DNA of 64,000 nt, taken from Pseudomonadota bacterium. Lineage in GTDB: Bacteria > Pseudomonadota > Gammaproteobacteria > Burkholderiales > JABEVD01. The stretch is taken from assembly GCA_021802545.1 (NCBI GenBank), contig JAJZRS010000007.1, positions 1-64,000 of the forward strand. Direction: 5' to 3'. The notes beneath the pieces are model-generated. The model saw only the letters and a list, made by a program, of their open reading frames with translations, was not told the origin of the DNA and made no database searches. Made by a program: the position numbers and the translations under genes. Positions 1 through 33,852 of this stretch are shown here, piece by piece (within the stretch, counting starts at the first letter, position 1; each line of letters starts with the position of its first letter).

Positions 1-437
1 CCTATTGCCATCCGAACCTGATTAGCGCTCCCCCTGGCCCGCGACTCAATGTGATGTTTAAAGAGAATCGTTCTCGACAGATAAAATAAGAATCTTTGAT
101 TAATAAGATCCGGGCGATTTATTCTTAGGCAAACTGCATTCTGGTTTAGAAATGAGCCAGAAAACTCATGTGAAATTCGCGCAGTCCGCCCCACAACCGA
201 CCCTGGTTGTGTCGGGTGTGACCCCACAGTAGCCACGATAACATCATTGCTTCTCAGTTCATGCTGACTATATTCTTCGAATTTTGAAAGGGGAAGATAA
301 TCGTCATCCTTTGCGACAATTCTATTTCCTTCCATATTAGTGACCTTAACGACATGTATTCCAGCGTCAACATACTCATCCTCTGACCATGCGCCGCCAT
401 TGATGAAATCACATATCTCTCCAAGAACCAGCTTCAC
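1..437 (-). CDS. hsdS: Type I restriction-modification specificity subunit HsdS (partial, C-terminal part beyond left edge)
   Basis: HsdS supplies DNA sequence recognition for a type I restriction-modification complex with HsdM and HsdR. The reverse strand reads without a stop from a GTG at 437 to the window edge, about 145 codons, beginning MKLVLGEICDF. It shows the usual first target-recognition domain, ending in an ARGSANQ stretch typical of these domains. The hsdM stop TAG (441-443) is followed by one AAA codon and then this GTG in the same frame, so no earlier start is possible. The second recognition domain lies off the window. The stretch is visibly more AT-rich than the core genes, as expected for an acquired module. 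hsdR is not in view. Confidence 0.88.
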   Translation of the reverse strand, partial: MKLVLGEICDFINGGAWSEDEYVDAGIHVVKVTNMEGNRIVAKDDDYLPLSKFEEYSQHELRSNDVIVATVGSHPTQPGSVVGRTARISHEFSGSFLNQNAVCLRINRPDLINQRFLFYLSRTILFKHHIESRARGSANQVRMAI

Positions 438-440
438 TTT

Positions 441-2507
441 CTATTCACCCACCAATGCATGGAGATTTTTATCAATCACTGACGTTATCGCATTCGCTTG
501 TAAAACTAGCGCTGATAGTTCGTCATTCATTGCCAGCAAATCGGCGACAAACTCCTCCTCGGTCTTGCCGTCCTCCTCAATCACCACGCCGACGTAGCGC
601 CCTGGGTTCAATGACCAGTCCTGCTCCTTGATTTCGTCGAGGCTCGCGAGCTTGCAAAGCCCTGTGACGTCCTCGTATTCTGCCTTCGGAAAACGGTCCT
701 GCAGCCAGCGCACATGCTGGAAATATTGCTCTGCACTCTTCACTTCCCCATGAAGTTCTTCGAGAGCTGCCTTGAGCGCCTTGGTTTTCCTATCCGTCGA
801 TATACGTTTTCCCTCAAGCTGGGCTTCCTCCGCCATCTTCTTTTCGTGATGGCGGACTGTCCTGTCGAGCGCCTTCAGCCCTTCGTGAAGAGAAGCGAAG
901 AAGGGATCGAAAGCTTCCCTCAGTTCATGCTGCGCCCTGTTTTTTTTGACTATTTCGGATTCAGGCTTCTTCCGGTACATCTCGTGGAGTTCGGAAAGCT
1001 TTTTCAGTCCGGACCATTGCGCAACGAGCCCGCCTACGGCTTCCTTCCCTGCCTCGTCCTCCAGCACTTCCAGGAGCTGGTGAGAGACGGGCTCCACCTT
1101 CTCCTTGTTCTCGAATAGGCGCTCCATGCCTTCCTCGAAATAGCCGTCGATCAGTTCGACGAATTTTTCCCGCTTTCCCTTGTGCAACTGGCTGATGATC
1201 GCGATGTTCTGGATCTGCTCTTCGGAAAACTCCCTGTGGGCGCGGTCGACCTGGGTGAAGATGTTGCGAGCATCTATGAACAGGACCTTGTCGTCATTCT
1301 TGGCCTTGTCGAAGAACCACAGCGTGGCTGGAAGCGTGACCGTGTAAAACATGTTCGAGGGCAATGTCAGCATGCCGTAAATCAGATTGTTCTCGATCAG
1401 AGTCCTGCGGATTTCGGCTTCCGAATGCCTGGCGTCCGAAGCTGAATTCGCCATGACGAGCGCTGCGCGGCCCTGGGGCTTCAATGAAGTGGCGAAAAGA
1501 TTGATCCAGAGGTAGTTCGCGTTTGGAACGGTTTCCTTGCCCTGATCCTCCTTCTTGAGCTTCGTCTTGTTCCTCGGTATGCCGTAGGTGTTGAATCTCT
1601 CGTCCTTTTCGACGCTTGACAAGCTCACGTCGTCCACGTTGAATGGAGGATTGGCGAGAACGTAATCGAAAGATCCGAAGCTGCCGAAAGGATCCTCATA
1701 ATAGCTGTTGGCCTGCTTGATTTCTCCCCTCAGTCCGTTGACCGCCAGGTTCATCTTGGCGAGGTTCACGGTGTCCCGTGTCTTTTCCGTTCCGCAGACA
1801 TAAACGCCGCTTTCCGCCCCCTGCAATTCCTTCCTGTGTTCCTCGATGAATTGCCCGGACTGTACGAACATTCCGCCAGAGCCGCAGGCAGGGTCGAAAA
1901 CCTTGCCGCCGTGCGGTTCTATGATTTCGACCATGAGGCGCACGACCGAGCGCGGAGTGAAAAACTCCCCGCCCTTCTGTCCTTCGCTGCGTGCGAATTC
2001 TGAAAGAAAATATTCGTATATTCGGCCGAAAAGATCCCCGGTAGCATCCACAGGGATGTCCGCAAATATCTTCAGCAGTAGCTTGGGCAGAAGCCTGGTT
2101 TGCTCGGTTCTCGTAAGCGCTGCATATTCGTCCTTGGGGAGCACGCCTTCGAGTTCGGGCTTGTATTCCTCGATGGATTTCATCGCCTCTTTCAGCGCCT
2201 TAGCCATGTCCTTTTCATCAGGAAGCTTCAGGAGGTAATCGTAGCGGGCATGATCTGGAAGATAGAAACCGCATTTCTCTATGGCGATCTCGGAAATAGG
2301 CTTCTCGCGCCTGGAGCCCTTCAGCTTCTGGTATTCCGCTAAGATTTCTTCCTCATGACGCCTGTAATTGTTGTCTGCGAACTTGAGGAAGATCAGCCCC
2401 AGGACAGGAGTGGAATATTCGCTAGATTTGAGATCTGAATTAGCCCGCAGCTTGTCCGCAGCAGACCAGAGATCGTTTTCCAGCTTTTTGAATTGTAATG
2501 GGGACAT
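441..2507 (-). CDS. hsdM: Type I restriction-modification N6-adenine methyltransferase HsdM
   Basis: Modification subunit (688 aa) that methylates adenine using S-adenosylmethionine and forms the core of the HsdM2S enzyme. The N-terminal HsdM_N helical domain covers about residues 5-150. The S-adenosylmethionine motif I, DPACGSGG, is at 205-212, and the N6-adenine catalytic motif NPPF is at 286-289. The C-terminal third is charged and helical, consistent with contact to HsdS. The start ATG at 2507 has no clear Shine-Dalgarno sequence, but the N-terminus MSPLQFKKLENDLW fits the family. hsdS follows three bases after the stop. All motifs are intact, so the subunit looks functional. Confidence 0.95.
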   Translation of the reverse strand: MSPLQFKKLENDLWSAADKLRANSDLKSSEYSTPVLGLIFLKFADNNYRRHEEEILAEYQKLKGSRREKPISEIAIEKCGFYLPDHARYDYLLKLPDEKDMAKALKEAMKSIEEYKPELEGVLPKDEYAALTRTEQTRLLPKLLLKIFADIPVDATGDLFGRIYEYFLSEFARSEGQKGGEFFTPRSVVRLMVEIIEPHGGKVFDPACGSGGMFVQSGQFIEEHRKELQGAESGVYVCGTEKTRDTVNLAKMNLAVNGLRGEIKQANSYYEDPFGSFGSFDYVLANPPFNVDDVSLSSVEKDERFNTYGIPRNKTKLKKEDQGKETVPNANYLWINLFATSLKPQGRAALVMANSASDARHSEAEIRRTLIENNLIYGMLTLPSNMFYTVTLPATLWFFDKAKNDDKVLFIDARNIFTQVDRAHREFSEEQIQNIAIISQLHKGKREKFVELIDGYFEEGMERLFENKEKVEPVSHQLLEVLEDEAGKEAVGGLVAQWSGLKKLSELHEMYRKKPESEIVKKNRAQHELREAFDPFFASLHEGLKALDRTVRHHEKKMAEEAQLEGKRISTDRKTKALKAALEELHGEVKSAEQYFQHVRWLQDRFPKAEYEDVTGLCKLASLDEIKEQDWSLNPGRYVGVVIEEDGKTEEEFVADLLAMNDELSALVLQANAITSVIDKNLHALVGE

Positions 2508-9056: not shown

Positions 9057-11120
9057 TTAGACCGCTTTCTTCGACGAAAGCAGTTCCGATTGCGCGCAGT
9101 AGAGATTGCTCCTCGCGCGTTTCCTGTGGTAATGCCCTTCCATGTCCATTTCCCATGCCTGGACAGTGTCCTTGAGGTAGGGCTTGAGCCCTTCCTGGAT
9201 CACCCTTCTCTTCAGCTTCGCATCCAGGACGGGGAAGCAGACCTCTATCCTTCTGAAGAAATTCCTGTCCATCCAGTCGGCGCTGGAAAGATAGACGTTC
9301 TGCGCCCCCCTGAAATAGAAGATCCTGCTGTGCTCGAGGAAGCGGCCGATGATGGAGCGCACCTTGATGTTCTCGGAGAGACCGGGTATGCCCGGCCTCA
9401 GGGCGCAAACGCCGCGCACGATGAGATAGATTTTGACCCCGGCCTGGGATGCGTCGTAGAGCGCCTGGATGATTTCGGGCTCCAGCAGCGCATTCATTTT
9501 CGCCGTGATGCCCGAGGGGAGACCTGCCTGGGCGTTCTTCGCTTCCTGCTGGATGGACAGGAGTATCTGCGAATGCAGGGTGAAAGGCGACTGCCAGAGG
9601 TGCTTGAGCTTGCCTGCCCGGCCGAGCCCGGTGAGCTGCATGAAAACGTCGTTCACGTCGGAGCACACTTCCTCCTTGCAGGTGAACAGGCCGAAATCGG
9701 TATAGAGCCTGGCCGTCCTTGGATGGTAGTTTCCCGTGCCGAGATGCACGTACCGCTTCAGGTTGTCCCCTTCCTTTCTCACCACCATGGACATCTTGGC
9801 GTGCGTCTTGTGCCCGACGACGCCGTAGACGACATGGGCTCCGGCCTCTTCCAGCCTTCCCGCCCAGTTGATGTTCGCCTCCTCGTCGAAGCGCGCGAGG
9901 AGCTCGACCACGACCGTGACTTCCTTTCCCTGCTTGGCCGCGCTGATCAGGGCTTCCATGATGACCGAATCCGTTCCTGTCCTGTAGACGGTCTGCTTGA
10001 TGGCGATGACCTTCGGGTCGCTCGCTGCTTCCTGGATGAACCTGATCACGGGCTGGAAGGATTCGAAGGGATGATGGAGCAGGATGTCACCTCTCCTGAT
10101 CATCTGGAAAATGCTGACACCCTTCTTCTGCAGGATGGCCGGCATCCCTGGAATGAACTGGGAGAATTTGAGGTCTGCCCTGTCCACCTTGTCCGGGATC
10201 GTCATCAGGCGGGCGAGGTTGACCGGCCCGTTGACGCGGTAAAGATCGTCCAGCGTCAGGTTGAACTGCTGCAGCAGGAACCCGACCATCGCGTCAGAGC
10301 AGTTCTCTGCGACTTCAAGCCTGACCGCATTGCCGAAATGCCTTTGCGGCAGCTCGCCCTGCAGCGCTATCCTGAGATTCTTGACTTCCTCTTCGTCGAC
10401 GAAGAGGTCGGAATTCCTGGTCACCCTGAACTGCGAGCATTGCAGCACGTTCATGCCGACGAAAAGCTCGTCCACGTGGGCGTGCAAAATCGATGAAAGG
10501 AAGACGAAATCGTGCTCGCTCTCGCAAAGCTCGCGCGGCAATGGGATCACCCTGGGCAATATCCTCGGTGCCTGGACGATGGCCGCCCCTGAATTCCTGC
10601 CGAAAGCGTCCCTCCCCTCCAGCTCTACCGCGAAATTGAGGCTCTTGTTCAGCACCCTTGGGAAGGGATGCGATGGATCCAGCCCGATGGGCGTCAGAAC
10701 GGGCATCAGCTCCCTGAAGAAGAACGCCTTGATCCATTCGCGCTGGGCGTCGTTCCAGTCGCTTCTTCTCAAGAAGCGGATTCCCTGCTCTTCGAGCATG
10801 GGCAGGATGCTTTCGTTGAGGAGCTGGTACTGTCTCGCGACGAGCTCGCGCGACCTTTCGGAGACGAGCTTGAAGACATGCCTGGGATTCATCCCGTCAG
10901 GTCCGCTCGAAGGCGAATCGAGGTTGATCTGCTCCTTGAGCCCCGCGACGCGAATTTCGAAGAATTCGTCCAGGTTGCTGCTGACGATGCACAGGTATTT
11001 CAGCCGCTCGAGCAACGGATGGTTGGGATCCTCGGCCTGGGCCAATACGCGCCTGTTGAACTCGAGCAGGCCGAGTTCCCGGTTCAGGTAGTTCTCTGCA
11101 AGGGGCAGTTTTTTCGTCAT
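9057..11120 (-). CDS. ppk: Polyphosphate kinase 1
   Basis: Makes polyphosphate from ATP reversibly, 687 aa, the usual length. The autophosphorylated histidine is in GHKTHAKM (H440) and the second active-site histidine in FLEHSRI (H597). The N, head, C1 and C2 domains are all present. The stop lies three bases past the 6S RNA end on the opposite strand. The start overlaps the yggX stop by 4 bases (ATGA), so yggX and ppk form one transcript. The product links functionally to ppx and the CHAD protein further right. Confidence 0.96.
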
Positions 11121-11389
11121 GCCTTCGGCGGAACGTACCCCGTAGCTGCGTCAGCGCCTTCGCCGAAGAAATGCTTCTCCATCTGCTCGGCGAGGTATTT
11201 CCTCGCCTGCGGATCGGCCAAATTGAGACGGTTCTCGTTGATCAGCATGGTCTGGTGCTTGAGCCATTGGCCCCATGCTTCCTTTGAAACATGCTCCTGT
11301 ATGCGCTTTCCGAGTTCGCCGGGATAGGGCGGGAAATCCAGCCCTTCCGCTTCTTTCCCAAGCTTGATGCAGTTCACCATTCTAGACAT
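11117..11389 (-). CDS. yggX: Probable Fe(II)-trafficking protein YggX
   Basis: Small cytosolic protein of 90 aa linked to protection of Fe-S clusters from oxidation. It has the typical start with a conserved cysteine ([15 protein letters not shown]7), followed by FPPYPG and [14 protein letters not shown]. It is complete and is the first gene of a two-gene unit with ppk. Confidence 0.93.
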
Positions 11390-20638: not shown

Positions 20639-21840
20639 AATGCGGCCCCGATCGCTTCGATCCTTGCCTGCGCGATCCTTTCCCTGATTTCTATCGGCCC
20701 CTGCGATTTTTTCGCAATGGCCCCGGCATCGACCGAAAGGGCTGCGGAAAGCGCGATCTTCAGCCGCTCGGCCTGCGGATAGGGAGAATCATGATAGCCC
20801 GGCCTTCCCCTGAAATCCGAAGAACAGGCATCGAGGAAATCGGAGAAGCGCTCCGTCTTCCTGAATGCGTCCGTTCCCAGGAAAAGATCGTGGATCGCCT
20901 CAATCCCAAGCTCCATGGCATGATGGGCAGTCCCATGATGGCAAGCGGTTACTATCGCAAGATCCCTGCAGTCGTTGGGCACCCTGATCCGCTCGCAGAG
21001 ATCCTTGACCAGACCGATCCCCCGCTCTTCGTGCCCGGGGTGATGCGGCCACTCTTCCGGCGGAGTCGTGCCCTTCCCGAGATCGTGCGTCAATGCGGAA
21101 AAGCGCACTGCAAGGGAATAGTTTTTCGATGCCGCATGGTCGAGCACGAGCATGACGTGCAGCCCGGTATCGATCTCGGGATGATGGACGGGCGACTGGG
21201 GCACCCCGAAAAGCACGTCGATCTCCGGCAGGATGCGGCTCAATGCGCCGCATTCCTTCAATGCATAGAACATCCTGGAAGGCTTCGCCTCCATCAGCCC
21301 TCTTGCCAGCTCCTGCCAGACGCGCTCAGGAACGAGCGCCTCGACTTCGCCGTTGTGGACCATCTCGTTCATCAAGGACAGGGTCTCGTCTGCGATCCTG
21401 AAGCCGAAGCGCGCGGCGAAACGCGCAACCCTGAGCACCCGCACCGGGTCTTCGGAAAAGGCCGGGCTGATGTGGCGCAAGATTCCCGCTTCCAGGTCGG
21501 CTATCCCGCCGAAAGGATCAATGATGTTTCCTTCATCGTCCTTGGCAATGGCGTTGATGGTGAGATCGCGCCTGGCCAGATCGTCGTTCAGCGTCACTTC
21601 AGGGGCTGCGTAGATCTCGAAGCCGCGGTAGCCCTTCGCCGTCTTGCGCTCGGTTCTTGCAAGCGCATATTCTTCGTGCGTCTCGGGATGGAGAAAAACG
21701 GGAAAATCCTTGCCGACCGGGCGGAAACCCAAGCCGATCAATGCCTCGGGAGAGCTGCCGACGACGACATGGTCGCGGTCCTTGACGGGAAGGCCGAGCA
21801 GTTCGTCCCTCACCGCCCCGCCGACCGAATAGATCTTCAT
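20635..21840 (-). CDS. cca: Multifunctional CCA-adding tRNA nucleotidyltransferase
   Basis: Adds or repairs the 3' CCA of tRNAs; 401 aa from ATG 21840 (MKIYSVGGAVRDELLG). The nucleotidyltransferase head carries GGAVRD and DRD; an HD-type phosphohydrolase domain follows (LTHDLGKG and the HHPGHEERG region), as in gammaproteobacterial and betaproteobacterial bifunctional forms. It overlaps slt upstream and ovoA downstream by 4 bases each, so all three are probably on one transcript. Both tRNAs in this window already encode CCA, so its role may be repair. Confidence 0.95.
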   Translation of the reverse strand: MKIYSVGGAVRDELLGLPVKDRDHVVVGSSPEALIGLGFRPVGKDFPVFLHPETHEEYALARTERKTAKGYRGFEIYAAPEVTLNDDLARRDLTINAIAKDDEGNIIDPFGGIADLEAGILRHISPAFSEDPVRVLRVARFAARFGFRIADETLSLMNEMVHNGEVEALVPERVWQELARGLMEAKPSRMFYALKECGALSRILPEIDVLFGVPQSPVHHPEIDTGLHVMLVLDHAASKNYSLAVRFSALTHDLGKGTTPPEEWPHHPGHEERGIGLVKDLCERIRVPNDCRDLAIVTACHHGTAHHAMELGIEAIHDLFLGTDAFRKTERFSDFLDACSSDFRGRPGYHDSPYPQAERLKIALSAALSVDAGAIAKKSQGPIEIRERIAQARIEAIGAAL

Positions 21841-23759
21841 GGTTCCGTCTTGAAGCTGGCGATCACGCCGAGCCGCTTCTTGAGGGGGATTTCCTCCTGC
21901 CCGAAGTTGCTGGCGTAGTATTCGGTATTGCTCATCACCTTCTTCACATAGTCGCGCGTTTCGGTGAAAGGAATGGTCTCGACATAGATCGCCCCTTCCA
22001 TGGGCTTGCTGCCGATCCACTGCTTTGCCCTGACAGGACCCGCATTGTAGGCTGCAGAAGCCAGAACCGGCTGATTATCAAGGATAGTGAGCACATGCTT
22101 CAAGTAGTATGTTCCGAGACTGATGTTGGTCTCGACCTGGTTCACGAGCGAACGATGGAAATGCCTCAGGCCGAGCTTGGATGCGACCCAGCGCGCCGTC
22201 GCGGGCATCAGTTGCATCAGCCCTGAAGCGCCCACCCCGGAGTGCGCCACCGTGACGAAGCGGCTTTCCTGGCGAATCAGGCCGTATACCCAGGCTTCAT
22301 CCAGCCCGAGCTGCTGGGTCTGCTCGTGCATCACGTCGCGATAAGGCGCCAGAAAACGCAACCCGAAGTCGTTGATGCTCACGGTCTTCTCGGCCGTGTT
22401 GATGGCGCGGTCGTAAAGGCCCTGGCGCCTCGCAAGCTCCGCTGCGGCAAGCAGCTGCCTGTCGTCGAAACCCTTGATCGCCCAGATCCATTCGCTCGTC
22501 GCATCCAGGCGCAAGCCCATCGAATAGAGGAGGAGGGAGCGCTCGATTCCGGGCACGTTCTCGATTTCAGCGATCGCCCCTTCGCTCGCCTTGTAGTTGT
22601 CGGGGGGAAGGGAGGCCACCGTCCCCATTTCCTCCAGGGAGAGCTGTCCGTAGAAATTGCGCTCATGGCTCAGGGCGGCCAGTATGGCATTGGCTTCGCT
22701 GGTCTTGCCCATGGATTTCAGCGCGCGGGCCTTCCAGTAGCGCCACTCAGGCTTGCCTGCAGCGTCTTTCGACATGGCGGTGACGCTGGAAAGCACCTCG
22801 TTCCAGTTCTCTTCGCGGAGGGCGGCGCGCGCCTTCCATGCAAGTTCTTCGTCGTCGAGATGGCCGCCCGAGAACCATTGCAATGCGTCCGGCAGATGCT
22901 TCTTGGCCGCCTGCATGGCCAGCTTTCCCGAAACATAATCCTTGTCGGCCTGGTCGAACCGGCCGCTCAGCTCCGACCAGCGCGATTTCGCCTCTTCCGG
23001 ATCGGATTTGGCGACGCGCAATGCCGCGAAAATCGCGATTTCGCGCTCCGCACGGCTTCTTGGATCGCTGTCCTTCTTGAGGTAATGGAGCGGCCTCTCG
23101 TAGGCGCGAACCAGGGACTTGTCGCTCATTCTCGCGCGTTCAGGCAATAGATCGTTGATTTCGCGTGCCAGGGTGAGGTCACCCGAATCAAGGATCATCC
23201 TGATCCGCTTCCAGATGTCCTGCTCGCTGATTCCGTGCGATGCGATCAACGCATTGAAAAGCGGGCCGCAGCTCGACGGCTGCCCCTTTGGGCTGAACCA
23301 GAGCGATGCGGCCTCTTTCACCGCCCCGGAATCGCCCAGCTCTTCGCGCGCCTGGAGCCAGTCGCAATAGAGCTCAGTATTCGGGCTATCGACCGCAGGA
23401 TACTGATCGTAGAAGGTCTGCCAGTTGTCGGATTTGGCGAGCGCCTTCAGCCAGGCCTTGCGCAGACGCTCGGCAAGCAGGCTGCCCTTGTAGCGCCCGA
23501 GAAAGGATTCGACCGTGGCATCGCTCGTATCGGCCAGGTTCATGGAAAGCCGCCAATACTCGGCATAAGGCTCGAGAGGGCTTCCCTCCAGCTTGGGCGC
23601 ATAGGCTTCCAGCCTCACCGCGTCGCCGTTGGCGTAGGCCTCTCTTGCCGCCATGAAATTTTCGGCCAGATCCGAAGGAAGGCCAAGCTTGGGAAAAAGC
23701 AGCATGCACAAAGCCGCTGCCTTCAAAAATTCAATTGAAAGGGTTTTTAGCGCCCGCAT
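21837..23759 (-). CDS. slt: Soluble lytic murein transglycosylase
   Basis: Periplasmic peptidoglycan-cleaving enzyme of the Slt70 type, 640 aa. A signal peptide is at the N-terminus (positive MRALK, hydrophobic core to about 27). A long alpha-superhelical U/L region (about 60-450) is followed by the SLT catalytic domain (about 470-600), with the catalytic glutamate in RQESRF and the GLMQLMPATA signature. The chosen start overlaps the upstream J-domain gene by 29 bases; a later methionine would lose the charged n-region. Confidence 0.94.
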   Translation of the reverse strand: MRALKTLSIEFLKAAALCMLLFPKLGLPSDLAENFMAAREAYANGDAVRLEAYAPKLEGSPLEPYAEYWRLSMNLADTSDATVESFLGRYKGSLLAERLRKAWLKALAKSDNWQTFYDQYPAVDSPNTELYCDWLQAREELGDSGAVKEAASLWFSPKGQPSSCGPLFNALIASHGISEQDIWKRIRMILDSGDLTLAREINDLLPERARMSDKSLVRAYERPLHYLKKDSDPRSRAEREIAIFAALRVAKSDPEEAKSRWSELSGRFDQADKDYVSGKLAMQAAKKHLPDALQWFSGGHLDDEELAWKARAALREENWNEVLSSVTAMSKDAAGKPEWRYWKARALKSMGKTSEANAILAALSHERNFYGQLSLEEMGTVASLPPDNYKASEGAIAEIENVPGIERSLLLYSMGLRLDATSEWIWAIKGFDDRQLLAAAELARRQGLYDRAINTAEKTVSINDFGLRFLAPYRDVMHEQTQQLGLDEAWVYGLIRQESRFVTVAHSGVGASGLMQLMPATARWVASKLGLRHFHRSLVNQVETNISLGTYYLKHVLTILDNQPVLASAAYNAGPVRAKQWIGSKPMEGAIYVETIPFTETRDYVKKVMSNTEYYASNFGQEEIPLKKRLGVIASFKTEP

Positions 23760-24687
23760 TTTTCAGGATTTCGATCATCTTTGCATCAGCTCTGACTTTA
23801 GCATAAATCATGGCCGTATTGCCCTGGCTGTCCGTCAGGTTGACATCCGCCCCATGGCGGATCAGGAGCCTCGCCATCTTGACATCGTCGTTCTTCACGG
23901 CAATGATCAAGGGCACCTGATTGTTCCTGACCTGATTGGGATCCCATCCGTCTTTCAGCATGCTCTCGACCGCAACCGCATCTCCGCTCGATACTGCGCT
24001 TGCAAGGTCGGAATATTTTTCCTGCAGGACGGGCGCAGGCTGCACGGCGGGCTTGGGCACGGGAACCGGCTTGGGCGCAACTGTTTCGGCCGGCTCACGG
24101 GAGGGAGCAGGTTTCAAGACAGGCCTGGAAGGCGGCTTGACCACAGGTTTGGGCATCTCGACCGGGGCAGGTCTCAAGACCGGCTTGGGCTCACTGGGTA
24201 CAGGCGGCTTAGGCATCTCGACAGGCTCAGGTACGGGAGGCGCTTCAACCATGGGCTTTTTTTCTGGAACCGGCGCGGGTACCTTGATTGCAACCTGCTG
24301 CGGCGCACTGGTTTCATGCCTTTTCCCGAAGATGAAAAAGGCTGCACCTGCAACCAGAAGGAGAATGAAGGTCCCTCCCGCGTAAATCATCCTTTTGTCG
24401 AAAGGCCGCTCCTCCGCTTCCTGCCGAGTGGTCTCTTCACTTGCAGCTTCCTCCTCTAGCGCAGGCATCTCCTCCATGGCAAGCATGGCGTCATAGGCCA
24501 GCCTGGAGGATGGATCGGAAAGGGTCTCGTAGGCATGGTTGATGAGCTTGAGCTGGTTTTCGGCGTCAGGATTATCCGGATTCTTGTCCGGATGATATCG
24601 CTGGACCAGGCTCTTGTAGGCTGCCCTGATCACCGAAACGCTCGCGTTTCGGCTAACCTCGAGAACGTCGTATAGCGTCTGTTTCAC
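23731..24687 (-). CDS. J-domain / transmembrane / proline-rich / ankyrin fusion protein
   Basis: 318-residue protein of unusual architecture. Residues 4-66 form a DnaJ-type J domain with the HPD motif at 32-34, which would stimulate an Hsp70 ATPase. An acidic linker follows (70-95), then one membrane segment (about 100-120). Residues 136-222 are a proline/valine/lysine-rich spacer like that of TonB, long enough to reach into the periplasm. Residues 225-314 are ankyrin-type repeats (ARLLIRHGADVNLTDSQGNTA). The J domain would face the cytosol and the ankyrins the periplasm. It sits between ilvA (3-base gap) and slt (29-base overlap). Domain calls are secure; function is unknown. Confidence 0.85.
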   Translation of the reverse strand: MKQTLYDVLEVSRNASVSVIRAAYKSLVQRYHPDKNPDNPDAENQLKLINHAYETLSDPSSRLAYDAMLAMEEMPALEEEAASEETTRQEAEERPFDKRMIYAGGTFILLLVAGAAFFIFGKRHETSAPQQVAIKVPAPVPEKKPMVEAPPVPEPVEMPKPPVPSEPKPVLRPAPVEMPKPVVKPPSRPVLKPAPSREPAETVAPKPVPVPKPAVQPAPVLQEKYSDLASAVSSGDAVAVESMLKDGWDPNQVRNNQVPLIIAVKNDDVKMARLLIRHGADVNLTDSQGNTAMIYAKVRADAKMIEILKNAGAKNPFN

Positions 24688-24690
24688 GGC

Positions 24691-26202
24691 TCATCCCAGG
24701 AAAAGCCGGTAGGCCGGATTGTCGGTCTCCGCCCAGAACCTGTATCCCAACTGCTCGAGGAAAGCCTCGAATTCGGCCATTTCCCCCTTGGGAACCTGCA
24801 TGCCGATCAATACGCGCCCGTAATCGGTGCCATGGTTGCGGTAATGGAAAAGACTGATGTTCCAATTGTGGCTCATGCTGTTCAAAAACTGCATGAGCGC
24901 GCCGGGGCGTTCGGGAAATTCGAAGCGGTAGACGAACTCGTTTTCGACCTGAGGGGCATGCCCGCCCACCATGTGGCGCACATGCAGCTTGCCCATCTCG
25001 TTCGAGGTGAGGTCGAGCGCCTTGAGATCCGCTTCCTGCAGCGCAGCGAGCAGATTTTCGGTCTCGTGACGACCCTGGACCTGGACGCCGACATACACAT
25101 GGGCTTCCTTCGGGTCTGCATAGCGATAATTGAATTCGGTGATGTTCCTGGCGCCCAGGATGGAACAGAACCGCTTGAAGCTCCCGGGTTTTTCCGGGAT
25201 GGTCACGGCGAATATGGCTTCCCTTTTCTCGCCGAGTTCGGCGCGCTCTGAAATGTAGCGCAGCCTGTCGAAGTTCATGTTGGCCCCGGAAGCGATGGCG
25301 ATCAGGGTCTTGTTTTTGATCTTTTCCCGGTCGACATAGCTTTTCGCGCCTGCGACCGCAAGCGCGCCTGCAGGCTCCAGGATCGAGCGGGTATCCTCGA
25401 ATACGTCCTTGATCGCTGCGCAGATCTCGTCGTTGCTCACCAGGACGATCTCGTCGACGAACTCCCTGCACAGCCTGAACGTTTCCTCACCCACGAGCTT
25501 GACCGCAACGCCGTCAGCGAAAAGCCCGACCTGGTCGAGCTTCACCCGCTCGCCATGCTCGAGGGATCTGTACATCGCATCGGCGTCGACAGGCTCCACG
25601 CCGATGATCCTGATCTCGGGATGGAGGCGCTTGATGTAGACGGCGATTCCCGCGATCAGTCCCCCGCCCCCGACTGGAACGAATATCGCATGGATGGGCA
25701 TGGGCTGCTGCCTCAATATTTCCATGGCAATGGTGCCCTGGCCTGCGATCACGTCGGGATCGTCGTAGGGATGAACGAAGGTCAGCCCCTTCTGCTTCGC
25801 GATTTCCTGGGAATGGGCATATGCCTCGTCGTAGGTGTCGCCGAACAGGACGACCTGAGCGCCCCTTGCCGCAACCGCCTGAACCTTGATGGCGGGCGTC
25901 GTGACAGGCATGACGATCGTGGCCGGCACGCCGAGCTTCTGGGCCGCGAGCGCAACGCCTTGAGCATGGTTGCCGGCGGAAGCGGCGATGACCCCATGTT
26001 CGAGCGCCTCCTTCGGCAGCTTCGCCATCTTGTTGTATGCGCCGCGGAGCTTGAAGGAAAAGACACTCTGCATGTCTTCGCGCTTGATCAGAAGGCGGTT
26101 TTTGAGTCGCGAAGAAAGATTGGTTGCCGTATCCAGCGGCGTTTCGACGGCGACATCGTAGACCTGCGCGGTCAGAATTCTTTCCAGATAATCGGGTTTC
26201 AT
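24691..26202 (-). CDS. ilvA: Biosynthetic threonine ammonia-lyase
   Basis: PLP enzyme of 503 aa converting threonine to 2-oxobutanoate, the first step to isoleucine. The Schiff-base lysine is in FSFKLRGAYN, and the glycine-rich phosphate loop is VGGGGLIAG. The C-terminal third has two ACT-like regulatory domains (from about residue 330 and 420), the form inhibited by isoleucine. It is full-length and first in the leftward run ilvA, J-domain/ankyrin gene, slt, cca, ovoA. It is divergent from rpiA. Confidence 0.95.
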   Translation of the reverse strand: MKPDYLERILTAQVYDVAVETPLDTATNLSSRLKNRLLIKREDMQSVFSFKLRGAYNKMAKLPKEALEHGVIAASAGNHAQGVALAAQKLGVPATIVMPVTTPAIKVQAVAARGAQVVLFGDTYDEAYAHSQEIAKQKGLTFVHPYDDPDVIAGQGTIAMEILRQQPMPIHAIFVPVGGGGLIAGIAVYIKRLHPEIRIIGVEPVDADAMYRSLEHGERVKLDQVGLFADGVAVKLVGEETFRLCREFVDEIVLVSNDEICAAIKDVFEDTRSILEPAGALAVAGAKSYVDREKIKNKTLIAIASGANMNFDRLRYISERAELGEKREAIFAVTIPEKPGSFKRFCSILGARNITEFNYRYADPKEAHVYVGVQVQGRHETENLLAALQEADLKALDLTSNEMGKLHVRHMVGGHAPQVENEFVYRFEFPERPGALMQFLNSMSHNWNISLFHYRNHGTDYGRVLIGMQVPKGEMAEFEAFLEQLGYRFWAETDNPAYRLFLG

Positions 26203-27713: not shown

Positions 27714-29216
27714 TTGGGGCTCGAGTATTCAACACTGGCAGCGGTCGATCTCGGCTCCAACAGCTTCAGACTGCAGATAGCGCGCATCGTTGACGACCAG
27801 GTCTATCCCCTCGACTCGCTGCGCGGCACGGTCAGGCTCGCGGCAGGGCTCACCCCGGACAATTACCTCGACGAGGCAGCCGAAGCGAGAGCGCTGGAAT
27901 GCCTGAACCAGTTCGGCGAACGCCTCAGAGGTCTCCCCCCTCATGCCGTGAGGGCTGTCGGCACCAATACATTGAGAGTGGCGACGAATGCCCAGGAATT
28001 TCTCGAGAAGGCCGAATATGCGCTCGGATTTCCCATCGAAGTGATCGCCGGACAGGAAGAAGCCAGGCTCATCTACCTCGGGGTTGCACACGGTTTGCCC
28101 GCATCCGGCGAAAACCGCCTCGTCGTCGACATAGGCGGCGGCTCGACCGAATTCATCATCGGCAACCGCCTGAAGCCGTTGAAGCTCGCAAGCCTTTACA
28201 TGGGCTGCGTGAGCTACAGCATGCGCTTCTTTCCGGAAGGCCGGATCACCAAAACGAATCTGAAGCAGGCCGAGCTCGCTGCAAGCCTGGAATTGCAGCG
28301 CATTTCGGGCGAGTTCTACCATGGGCAATGGCGGGAAGCCATCGGTTCTTCCGGGACGGCAAGATCCCTGGCCGACATTCTCGAACAGAACGGCTTCAGC
28401 TCTTCCGGCATCACGCTGGACGGGCTGGAGAAGCTGCGCGCCCTGCTCCTGAAGGTGGGAGACGCCAGGCGCCTGCAGCTTCCGGGCCTGAGGGCTGAAC
28501 GTGCGCAGATCCTTCCTGGCGGATTCGCCATCATGCACGCTGCCTTCTGCGAACTCGGCATCGAGCAGATGAACCCCGCATCCGGCGCCCTGAGGCAGGG
28601 CGTGCTCTACGACATGCTGGGCAGGTTCCATCACAAGGACATGCGCGACGTGACGACCCAGCAGTTCATGAGGCGCTATCATGTCGATGCGGTCCAGGCG
28701 GAGCGCGTCAGGGCGCTCGGCGCCTTCCTCGGTCAAAAGCTGATCGGCGAAGAAAGCGAGCTCCAGTTTCTTTGCTGGTCGGCGAAACTGCACGAAATCG
28801 GCATTTCGGTTGCGCACAACGGCTACCACAAGCATTCCGCCTACATCCTGGCCAACGCAGACATGCCCGGCTTTTCCAAGAAGGAACAGACGAGGCTGAG
28901 CCACCTTGTGCTCGCCCACAAGGGATCGCTCTCCAAGATGCAGGGGCTGCTTCAGCACCCCGCCGATCTTTCACTGGTTTTTTCCCTGAGGATGGCCGCC
29001 CTGTTCTACAGGAGCAGGGCAGACATCGCGCTGCCTGTCATGGAAGCCAAATCCACTTCCCTCGGGTTCGACCTTTCGCTCGAGGCTGGATGGCTTGCAA
29101 GGAATCCCCTGACCTCGACTGCCCTGAAGGAGGAGGTCAGGGAATGGAAGACGCTCGGCGTTGAACTCAACCTGATCGAACTTTCCGCTAAAACTCGAAA
29201 ATCTCGCCAGGCCTGA
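27714..29216 (+). CDS. ppx: Exopolyphosphatase (Ppx/GppA family)
   Basis: 500-residue enzyme that releases phosphate from polyphosphate ends or hydrolyses pppGpp. The sugar-kinase-like ATPase fold has DLGSNSFRLQ near the start and VDIGGGSTEF near 140; the C-terminal half is the HD-like helical domain of long Ppx forms. The N-terminus requires a TTG start at 27714, two bases after the phoU stop; there is no ATG nearby. The last 29 bases overlap the end of the convergent metallo-beta-lactamase-fold gene. Ppx versus GppA cannot be settled here. Confidence 0.92.
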   Translation: MGLEYSTLAAVDLGSNSFRLQIARIVDDQVYPLDSLRGTVRLAAGLTPDNYLDEAAEARALECLNQFGERLRGLPPHAVRAVGTNTLRVATNAQEFLEKAEYALGFPIEVIAGQEEARLIYLGVAHGLPASGENRLVVDIGGGSTEFIIGNRLKPLKLASLYMGCVSYSMRFFPEGRITKTNLKQAELAASLELQRISGEFYHGQWREAIGSSGTARSLADILEQNGFSSSGITLDGLEKLRALLLKVGDARRLQLPGLRAERAQILPGGFAIMHAAFCELGIEQMNPASGALRQGVLYDMLGRFHHKDMRDVTTQQFMRRYHVDAVQAERVRALGAFLGQKLIGEESELQFLCWSAKLHEIGISVAHNGYHKHSAYILANADMPGFSKKEQTRLSHLVLAHKGSLSKMQGLLQHPADLSLVFSLRMAALFYRSRADIALPVMEAKSTSLGFDLSLEAGWLARNPLTSTALKEEVREWKTLGVELNLIELSAKTRKSRQA

Positions 29217-32345: not shown

Positions 32346-33818
32346 TCATCTCCAAAAAGGATCGATATCCTTGTATTTTTTCCAGGCCTTGTCCAGCCCC
32401 GCTATCCTGTGCCCCACCTCGCTCGCCACCCAGCCCCTGACCAGCCATGCAGCCTCGTTGCCGGGCAGCTCCTCGAGCAGATGGCTCGTCGTCGAAGCAT
32501 CGTTGATCGCGCCGAGCATGTCCTGAAGAGAGGCCATCTCGCGCAGAAAGCTGCGCGACGCGCGAGCAGGATAGAGCGTGGAGAAGAATTCAGCAGCATA
32601 GCGAAGCTTTTTCCCGCTGATGCGCAAGGCGTGCAATCCTGCCGCATCGAGCGAGGCGATTCCGCGCCCCCCCCTGATGAAACGGCGGTAGCGCTTCTCC
32701 AGCGTCTTTTTTGCGAAATCGCCGACCGTCTCGCCCTGGATCCAGTTCTCACGGCTCAAGACAAGCCCCAGCCCCAGGATCAGCTTCTGGAACCGTTGCG
32801 AAGAAACGGCGGCTTGAGCCCTTGCCCCGCACTTTTCCCGTGTCGCATCGCCCGCCCTGCGCAATGCCTCGAGGCCGGCATGATCGGGAAAAGCGGAAAA
32901 AATGGGGGGAAACGTCTCCTCCATGAAGACGTCCCAGTTTCTCGCAGGGCCCAATTCAGAACCCAGCCATTTCAATTCAGGCAAAACATCTGAAAAAGCA
33001 GGCCGGGCGAAGGCGAAGACGCTCAGGGCCGAACGCATCCGCCTCAAACCGACGCGCATCTGGTGCAGGTATTCGCTGTCCGGATCGCGATCCAGGAGCC
33101 CCTGGCGATTTCCCTGGATCTGCAGCAGGCAGCCTCTGACGATTTGCCTGCATGCCTCCCCTGCATCCAGCTTGCCTTCGAACTCCACGAAAGCAGCCTT
33201 CGTCACCTTGCGGCCTTTCGTGCCCAGGAAAAGCGCATAGCCGCGTTCGGCCTTGCTTCTTTCTTCGACCTGGAGCGGCACCGTGTTCTGCAGTTCAAGC
33301 GCGAACTCGAAAAGCGCCGAAGGCTCGCCCGATTTCAACTCGAGTTCGAGTTCCGAAATGGTCTCCTCCTGATCTCCCGCCAGGATCTTGCCCCTGTCGA
33401 GACAGCATTCGATGACGCTCCCTGAAAATTCGACCGGAACGGTTTTCCTCGAAAATTCGGTGGAAAATACAGGAACGAGGCTGTTGCGCAGCTCGGGATT
33501 GCCGAACAGCTTGACCAGATGCGGATCGTCAATCTTGGTGAAATCCAGGGCGCCTCGCGCAACCGCATATTCCCATTCGCATCGGGTATGCACACCGGCC
33601 AGCACGCCCCCTCCGCCCTTGACGGTCTGCACCCATTTCCCCCCGACCTTCCTGAGGCGGAGCGCCACGGCTTTCGATTTGAGATCGAGAAAAGGGGTAT
33701 CGAAATAGACGCTCGAAACCCGCGCCGAGCGGAAGGCAGACTGAAGAAGCGGATGGCGGACAAGCTTCGCCATCGAACCTTTCGGCACCCGCAGCTTGAG
33801 CTCGATTTCGACGTTCAT
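32346..33818 (-). CDS. CYTH-CHAD domain protein (inorganic triphosphatase, polyphosphate-binding)
   Basis: 490 aa. The N-terminal CYTH domain (about 1-200) begins with the EXEXK signature (E4, E6, K8) that binds triphosphate with metal. The C-terminal CHAD domain (about 215-490) is a histidine- and arginine-rich helical bundle (MRVGLRRMRSAL, ALRISGKKLRYAAEFF) known to bind polyphosphate. E. coli YgiF has the same layout and is a tripolyphosphatase. The start ATG 33818 gives MNVEIELKLR; 33833 is an alternative. sixA follows in the same direction. Confidence 0.9.
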   Translation of the reverse strand: MNVEIELKLRVPKGSMAKLVRHPLLQSAFRSARVSSVYFDTPFLDLKSKAVALRLRKVGGKWVQTVKGGGGVLAGVHTRCEWEYAVARGALDFTKIDDPHLVKLFGNPELRNSLVPVFSTEFSRKTVPVEFSGSVIECCLDRGKILAGDQEETISELELELKSGEPSALFEFALELQNTVPLQVEERSKAERGYALFLGTKGRKVTKAAFVEFEGKLDAGEACRQIVRGCLLQIQGNRQGLLDRDPDSEYLHQMRVGLRRMRSALSVFAFARPAFSDVLPELKWLGSELGPARNWDVFMEETFPPIFSAFPDHAGLEALRRAGDATREKCGARAQAAVSSQRFQKLILGLGLVLSRENWIQGETVGDFAKKTLEKRYRRFIRGGRGIASLDAAGLHALRISGKKLRYAAEFFSTLYPARASRSFLREMASLQDMLGAINDASTTSHLLEELPGNEAAWLVRGWVASEVGHRIAGLDKAWKKYKDIDPFWR

Positions 33819-33852
33819 GTCCAATTGTAGCATCCTGAAAGTTCAGCCTGAT

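Follow-up and report, generated by a model that had tools for sequence, protein, structure and literature searches.

Which function may be assigned to a gene that joins a J domain, a membrane helix, a proline-rich spacer and ankyrin repeats in a single product, and that lies between ilvA and slt, is the question raised by the locus described here. The gene, here named JANK, was found in a window of 64,000 nucleotides (that is, the whole stretch of DNA analyzed).

Domain Architecture of JANK

The gene and the parts of its product are the following:

23731-24687, minus strand: J-TM-Pro-ANK gene (JANK), 318 aa, GTG start; from the ORF call, Pfam and the orthologs in 9/9 family genomes
24490-24675, minus strand: J domain, residues 5-66, HPD intact; Pfam DnaJ, E 2.3e-22
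24397-24489, minus strand: acidic linker from the J domain to the membrane helix, residues 67-97; charge count and AF2 model
24331-24387, minus strand: membrane helix, residues 101-119; hydropathy 2.18, AF2 helix 98-121
24022-24324, minus strand: proline-rich spacer, residues 122-222, 32 Pro/101; composition, with residues 122-220 lacking regular structure in the AF2 model
23734-24018, minus strand: ankyrin module, residues 224-318, three helix pairs; Pfam, AF2 model and Foldseek

Most of these parts had been recognized in a preliminary description of the sequence, and they were recovered here. Indeed, the intact HPD-bearing J domain that it proposed is matched by Pfam DnaJ; its one membrane helix corresponds to the single hydrophobic segment found by the hydropathy scan (mean hydropathy 2.18 over residues 101-119); and the ankyrin repeats that it placed after the spacer were retrieved by Pfam (Ank_2, residues 230-313, E 9.1e-11), by the AF2 model of the module alone (three helix pairs, pLDDT 76.2, pTM 0.72) and by a Foldseek search with that model, whose top matches were ankyrin proteins, both designed and natural (TM about 0.64, lowest E 2.8e-3, no match reaching E <=0.001). 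The spacer, described as TonB-like and about 85 residues long, is indeed rich in proline; its length is 101 residues, and the likeness to TonB is one of composition only. JANK was rejected as a TonB protein, since no TonB match was found in the window's protein at E up to 0.1; among six scanned orthologs, one (L089) gave a weak match to TonB polyproline (E 0.0038, below the cut-off). The linker has a net charge of -9 across residues 70-97. The full-length AF2 model, built on two sequences, weak and of low overall confidence (pLDDT 64.7), contains the J helices, the helix at 98-121 and the ankyrin helices, and residues 77-97 of the linker have a pLDDT <50.

No Pfam match to the DnaJ C-terminal domain was found in the window's protein at E up to 0.1, and JANK, having a J domain with HPD and no other DnaJ regions, fits the class C J-domain proteins. 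According to the available part of PMC8215388, this class is very heterogeneous, and its members may have transmembrane regions as well as domains for protein interaction. DjlA of E. coli is, as JANK is predicted to be, a J protein of the inner membrane; it acts with DnaK and, in the available part of PMC11709261, it has a helix near the N terminus, a TerB-like domain and a C-terminal J domain, its periplasmic end being short. The identification of JANK as DjlA was rejected, since the order of its parts is J domain, helix, spacer and ankyrin module, and the NCBIfam DjlA model gave 20.8 bits against a cut-off of 162. DjlB and DjlC of E. coli, fixed to the inner membrane as JANK would be, are tail-anchored and assigned to HscC (PMC8215388, same part); this identification was also rejected, because about 200 residues follow the helix of JANK, which thus has no tail anchor.

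Conservation of JANK and Exchange of Its Membrane Part

The search for this architecture and its neighbours proposed in the preliminary description revealed JANK orthologs in 9/9 genomes of the family (the G005 copy being cut by the contig end), with the ilvA-JANK order kept. Thus, the gene is real and not a product of chance, and JANK is conserved in one small family of bacteria. No full-length homologue outside the family appeared among the matches listed when samples from the order (399 genomes) and the phylum (299 genomes) were searched, four or five candidates being scored per genome, with a profile of eight orthologs that omits the cut G005 copy. In the scan of named genomes, the full-length relative among the matches listed was L001, whose protein reads identical to that of G006; of the plasmid records, 294 match JANK and 0 cover 80% of it, so that they are uninformative beyond the J domain. 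A literature search, limited in its coverage, returned no paper on this combination, and the work of Barriot et al. 2020 cited in PMC8215388, reportedly a domain survey of bacterial J proteins, may already contain the architecture.

The orthologs are 57-64% identical to the window's protein, and conservation is concentrated at the two ends. In pairwise comparisons of eight orthologs, identity averages 82% for the J domain, 81% for the ankyrin module and 40% for the spacer, and the invariant positions number 42/70, 55/95 and 13/153 in the J domain, the ankyrin module and the region between them, respectively. The HPD motif is present in 9/9 family members, and cysteine is absent from all eight orthologs compared.

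The membrane part exists in two forms. Four genomes (G000, which is the window's own, G001, G005 and G006) harbor the single-helix form, whose 19-residue hydrophobic segment is strong in all of them (hydropathy 2.18 to 2.91); in the other 5/9 (G002, G003, G004, G007 and G008), a DUF2628-like multi-pass block replaces the helix. The matches of DUF2628 (PF10947) to this middle block have E 3e-5 to 6e-3, one protein being above the cut-off, and the Pfam scan gave no such match in the window's JANK. A six-frame search found PF10947 in 6/60 relatives, four of them in JANK's genus (above the cut-off), and missed G008; among the papers listed in a literature search, none mentions DUF2628. In the slt tree, a branch supported at 95/97 unites the three single-helix rows with two of the DUF2628 form, the remaining three of that form lying outside, which makes the DUF2628 form more likely to be ancestral, the single-helix form of the window then representing a loss; the ilvA tree did not order the two forms. 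Since both ends persist while the membrane part was exchanged, selection would appear to keep the link itself.

A Possible Role for JANK

On the basis of these features, we tentatively suggest, granting the whole slightly less than an even chance, that JANK belongs to the class C J-domain proteins and is inserted N-in in the inner membrane, and that its J domain would recruit DnaK to the inner face of this membrane. The proline-rich stretch would act as a stiff rod, some 100 residues long and about 30 nm when fully extended, that carries the ankyrin module with its three repeats into the periplasm; there, this module might bind an envelope protein. DnaK activity would thus be placed near a chosen envelope partner, and the most likely role would be to help make, insert or hold this partner at the membrane. 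Slt, encoded by the overlapping gene, would be the leading, putative, candidate.

Gene Order and a Possible Link with Slt

The neighbours of JANK are the following:

21837-23759, minus strand: slt, soluble lytic murein transglycosylase, 640 aa; Pfam SLT 4.3e-25, SLT_L 2.6e-8
23731-23759, minus strand: overlap of the JANK end with the slt start, 29 nt; kept in 7/8 loci
24691-26202, minus strand: ilvA, threonine ammonia-lyase, 503 aa; TIGR01124 854.6 bits, cut-off 411.3

The slt product scores 266.3 bits with the full-length NCBIfam murein transglycosylase model, under the cut-off of 536. As previously described, slt follows JANK with a 29-base overlap, its ORF beginning inside JANK; at the other side, the ilvA stop codon lies 3 nt before the JANK start. 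The ilvA-JANK order is kept in 9/9 genomes and the JANK-slt order in all eight loci that are long enough, the ninth ending inside JANK. In those loci showing both genes, the slt ATG falls inside JANK with the sole exception of L189, where the overlap is lost, and this conservation speaks for a coupled translation of JANK and slt.

Outside the family, 26 slt matches were obtained, 22 of which with loci (flanks of at most 1.5 kb, those of L205 and L222 being too short to tell), and in 4/22 of these loci ilvA directly precedes slt, without room for JANK. On its simplest reading, this adjacency means that ilvA and slt formed a pair before JANK was inserted between them; if so, the position of JANK may be inherited, which weakens a functional link with Slt. 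Hence, of the connection with peptidoglycan turnover drawn in the preliminary description, the overlap holds in most loci, and the functional link between Slt and JANK is only suggestive.

The two forms also differ upstream of the gene. The five DUF2628-form genes (L184, L185, L186, L189 and L190) possess a leader with TATAGAAT located 47-61 nt before the JANK ATG and with a CTGT(T/A)TT element at constant spacing from it, an arrangement that is promoter-like; in the four single-helix genes, the start lies 3 or 4 nt past the ilvA stop, and none of these genes abutting ilvA showed such a leader. A gene possessing its own promoter-like leader, an overlap gone in one genome and the ilvA-slt pairs devoid of JANK are all in agreement with the idea that JANK is the trans-membrane J protein outlined above and has a partner unrelated to Slt, the gene having landed between ilvA and slt and sharing a common transcript. 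We consider this idea to have close to one chance in two, even though the overlap has been kept in 7/8 loci although the proteins are just 57-64% identical to that of the window.

A second possibility assigns to Slt a different fate, in that the ankyrin module might inhibit or tether Slt in the periplasm, the J domain adding the help of DnaK during the export of the precursor. The model for it is Bd3460 of Bdellovibrio, described in the available part of PMC4686830 as an exported, periplasmic ankyrin protein with a signal peptide and six repeats, which binds the DD-endopeptidase of the adjacent gene and blocks it. JANK resembles Bd3460 in its ankyrin fold and in adjoining a peptidoglycan hydrolase gene (slt, eight loci), and both the conserved overlap and the exported type of the ankyrin relatives among the matches listed fit such a role. 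However, JANK has three repeats against the six reported in that part of the source, it comes before slt whereas the Bd3460 gene comes after that of its enzyme, and it was probably inserted into an older gene pair, so that we regard an inhibitor or tether of this kind as unlikely.

Other genes of the window were observed in passing. A polyphosphate kinase (9063-11150), a Ppx/GppA phosphatase (27714-29213) and a CYTH-CHAD protein (32352-33842) may concern polyphosphate, and an HsdM-type DNA methylase at the edge of the window (N6_Mtase, HsdM_N; 447-2525) perhaps belongs to a type I restriction system.

The Probable Hsp70 Partner and the J-Domain Lineage

The window's genome, rated 99.98% complete, contains five J-domain places above the cut-off. 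The Pfam HSP70 search of this genome retrieved one full-length match, a protein of 638 aa encoded beside dnaJ, that is, DnaK; the other match is partial (105/599 positions), so that no HscC partner of the DjlB/DjlC type was found. Since a single full-length Hsp70 match exists, DnaK is by elimination the probable partner of JANK. The earlier proposal that the J domain recruits DnaK is therefore supported as to the identity of the partner, and we infer the recruitment itself.

In a tree of 36 J domains, the eight JANK sequences and 14 others are separated from 13 DnaJ/CbpA sequences and L107 with a branch support of 100/99; the tree has few columns and hand-chosen rows, with long branches meeting at the join (a warning of the program). 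Nine of these 14 proteins have one clear helix after the J domain; in L136, L138 and L170 the helix falls below the cut-off used, two helices, both late, are seen in L249, and L142 is without any after the J domain. Most of them belong to the N-terminal-J proteins of the order (L135-L138, L154, L162, L170, L243-L248 and L002), all of which, except L244 and L246, group with JANK at this branch. They share with JANK the N-terminal J domain and, usually, one helix followed by a variable tail; unlike JANK, no ankyrin match was reported in their tails, and no confident Pfam family was found in the tails of those scanned. L002 is a record of Massilia yuzhufengensis, which we take to be placed in the same order as the host of JANK. 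By eye, the tails of L002, L136-L138, L154, L162 and L243-L246, all with a J-helix-tail layout, look alike (GYP ... VDN ... VK(L/V)-like); L135 and L247, of the same layout, have a common SPGRYG stretch near the end, and L170 was grouped with both. A DNA pattern for the VIRAAYK stretch matched 5/150 genomes and missed the window's own gene; it therefore says nothing on the prevalence of the lineage.

A variant of the same plan is encoded at the following position of L234 (G030):

234-1484, minus strand: J-helix-Pro-Trypsin_2 protein; Pfam and printed sequence

This protein has a J domain without HPD, one helix and a proline-rich stretch, and it carries Trypsin_2 (E 2.4e-17) where JANK has ankyrin; it lies outside the J tree. 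One might imagine a trans-envelope J lineage, in which a cytosolic recruiter of DnaK would be combined with exchangeable periplasmic modules, such as ankyrin in JANK and other domains in its relatives, and periplasmic binding would place DnaK, the partner being in the present case newly exported Slt; we judge so broad a scheme improbable.

J domains without HPD do occur, as indicated by L234 and by L233 (YDPD instead of HPD), both from related genomes, and by L084 of the window's genome (G000:C32:130291-130464, within a 385-aa frame), whose DUF2189 match is under the cut-off. In L084, several hydrophobic stretches were also noticed by eye. Such proteins, the replaceable membrane part and the statement that J domains are late add-ons in some cases (PMC8215388, available part) might suggest that the J domain of JANK is a mere N-terminal leftover or anchor, the ankyrin module being the working part and DnaK uninvolved. 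However, HPD is retained in 9/9 members, and the J domain, with 42/70 positions invariant in eight orthologs, is as conserved as the ankyrin module, so that we give this view little credit.

Membrane Topology

The topology assigned to JANK in the preliminary description, with the J domain inside and the ankyrin module in the periplasm, appears likely but not secure. The charges give mixed evidence, because the margin of the single-helix form is small and the flanks of the DUF2628 form disagree. Indeed, when K+R are counted over 15 residues on either side of the single helix, three members give 4/2, 4/2 and 3/2 (before/after), a slight excess that points to N-in. As to the DUF2628 form, its loop preceding the last helix contains 7, 7, 7, 6 and 4 K+R and 4, 5, 3, 3 and 6 D+E in L089, L090, L091, L092 and L093, respectively, and it is net basic in 4/5 and net acidic in 1/5; judged by its 15-residue flanks, the last helix would cross outward in two of them (2/1 and 3/1) and in the reverse direction in three (3/4, 2/4 and 1/3). 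The helix count of this form depends on the cut-off, being three in L091 and L093, two in L090, and, in L089 and L092, three with a further, false call in the ankyrin module; a weaker, uncounted segment lies upstream, and the parity would change if it crossed the membrane.

Stronger support than that of the charges comes from the ankyrin relatives outside the family: among the matches listed, the repeats are preceded by a hydrophobic export-like segment in 25/27, which favours a periplasmic ankyrin module. This is a hydropathy reading made with no signal peptide predictor, the true start being uncertain in some relatives and the segment of L295 resembling membrane helices; no export-like segment was found in the other two (L228 and L302), nor in L281, an ankyrin relative from the window's genome. 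The stand-alone exported ankyrins of the order (e.g., L225) are the closest to the JANK module among the matches listed, and in several of them a YDD stretch, similar to one in JANK, starts the mature part. They differ in having a signal peptide-like start in place of the J-TM-Pro part of JANK, and L225 has more repeats. Some of their genes lie near ORFs resembling, by eye, tmk, holB, tatD and mltG-like genes.

The idea that JANK replaces a missing separate ankyrin protein was rejected, since 9/9 family genomes carry at least one further ankyrin match. In the window's genome, such matches occur on C12 and C48, the latter without an export-like segment. Within the former, L280 (G000:C12:8300-10300) showed by eye a rhodanese-like domain followed by ankyrin repeats, with no export segment seen.

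That both ends are cytosolic, the segment not crossing the membrane or the DUF2628 form having an even parity, with the ankyrin module binding a cytosolic protein, would agree with the mixed charge flanks and with the three relatives devoid of an export-like segment, but is rendered quite improbable by the strength of the 19-residue segment in all four single-helix members, by the multi-pass block that the other five orthologs have at this position and by the exported appearance of 25/27 listed relatives.

Discussion

Taken together, the domain content of JANK, its orthologs and their HPD in 9/9 genomes, the conservation of both ends around swapped membrane parts, the single full-length Hsp70, the exported type of 25/27 listed ankyrin relatives, the grouping of the J domains at 100/99, the overlap kept in 7/8 loci and the precedent of Bd3460 lead us to favour, with the caution expressed above, a J protein inserted N-in that would recruit DnaK inside and bind an envelope partner outside, with Slt as the leading candidate. 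This explanation is weakened by the mixed charges, the cut-off-dependent helix count, the 4/22 loci in which ilvA and slt are adjacent, the lost overlap of L189 and the weak full-length model.

As far as the available parts of the sources describe them, the membrane J proteins of E. coli have either a short periplasmic end (DjlA) or a tail anchor (DjlB and DjlC), unlike JANK. If the proposed explanation is true, the conserved folded module at the far side of the membrane would allow the cytosolic Hsp70 to be steered directly by the state of the periplasm.
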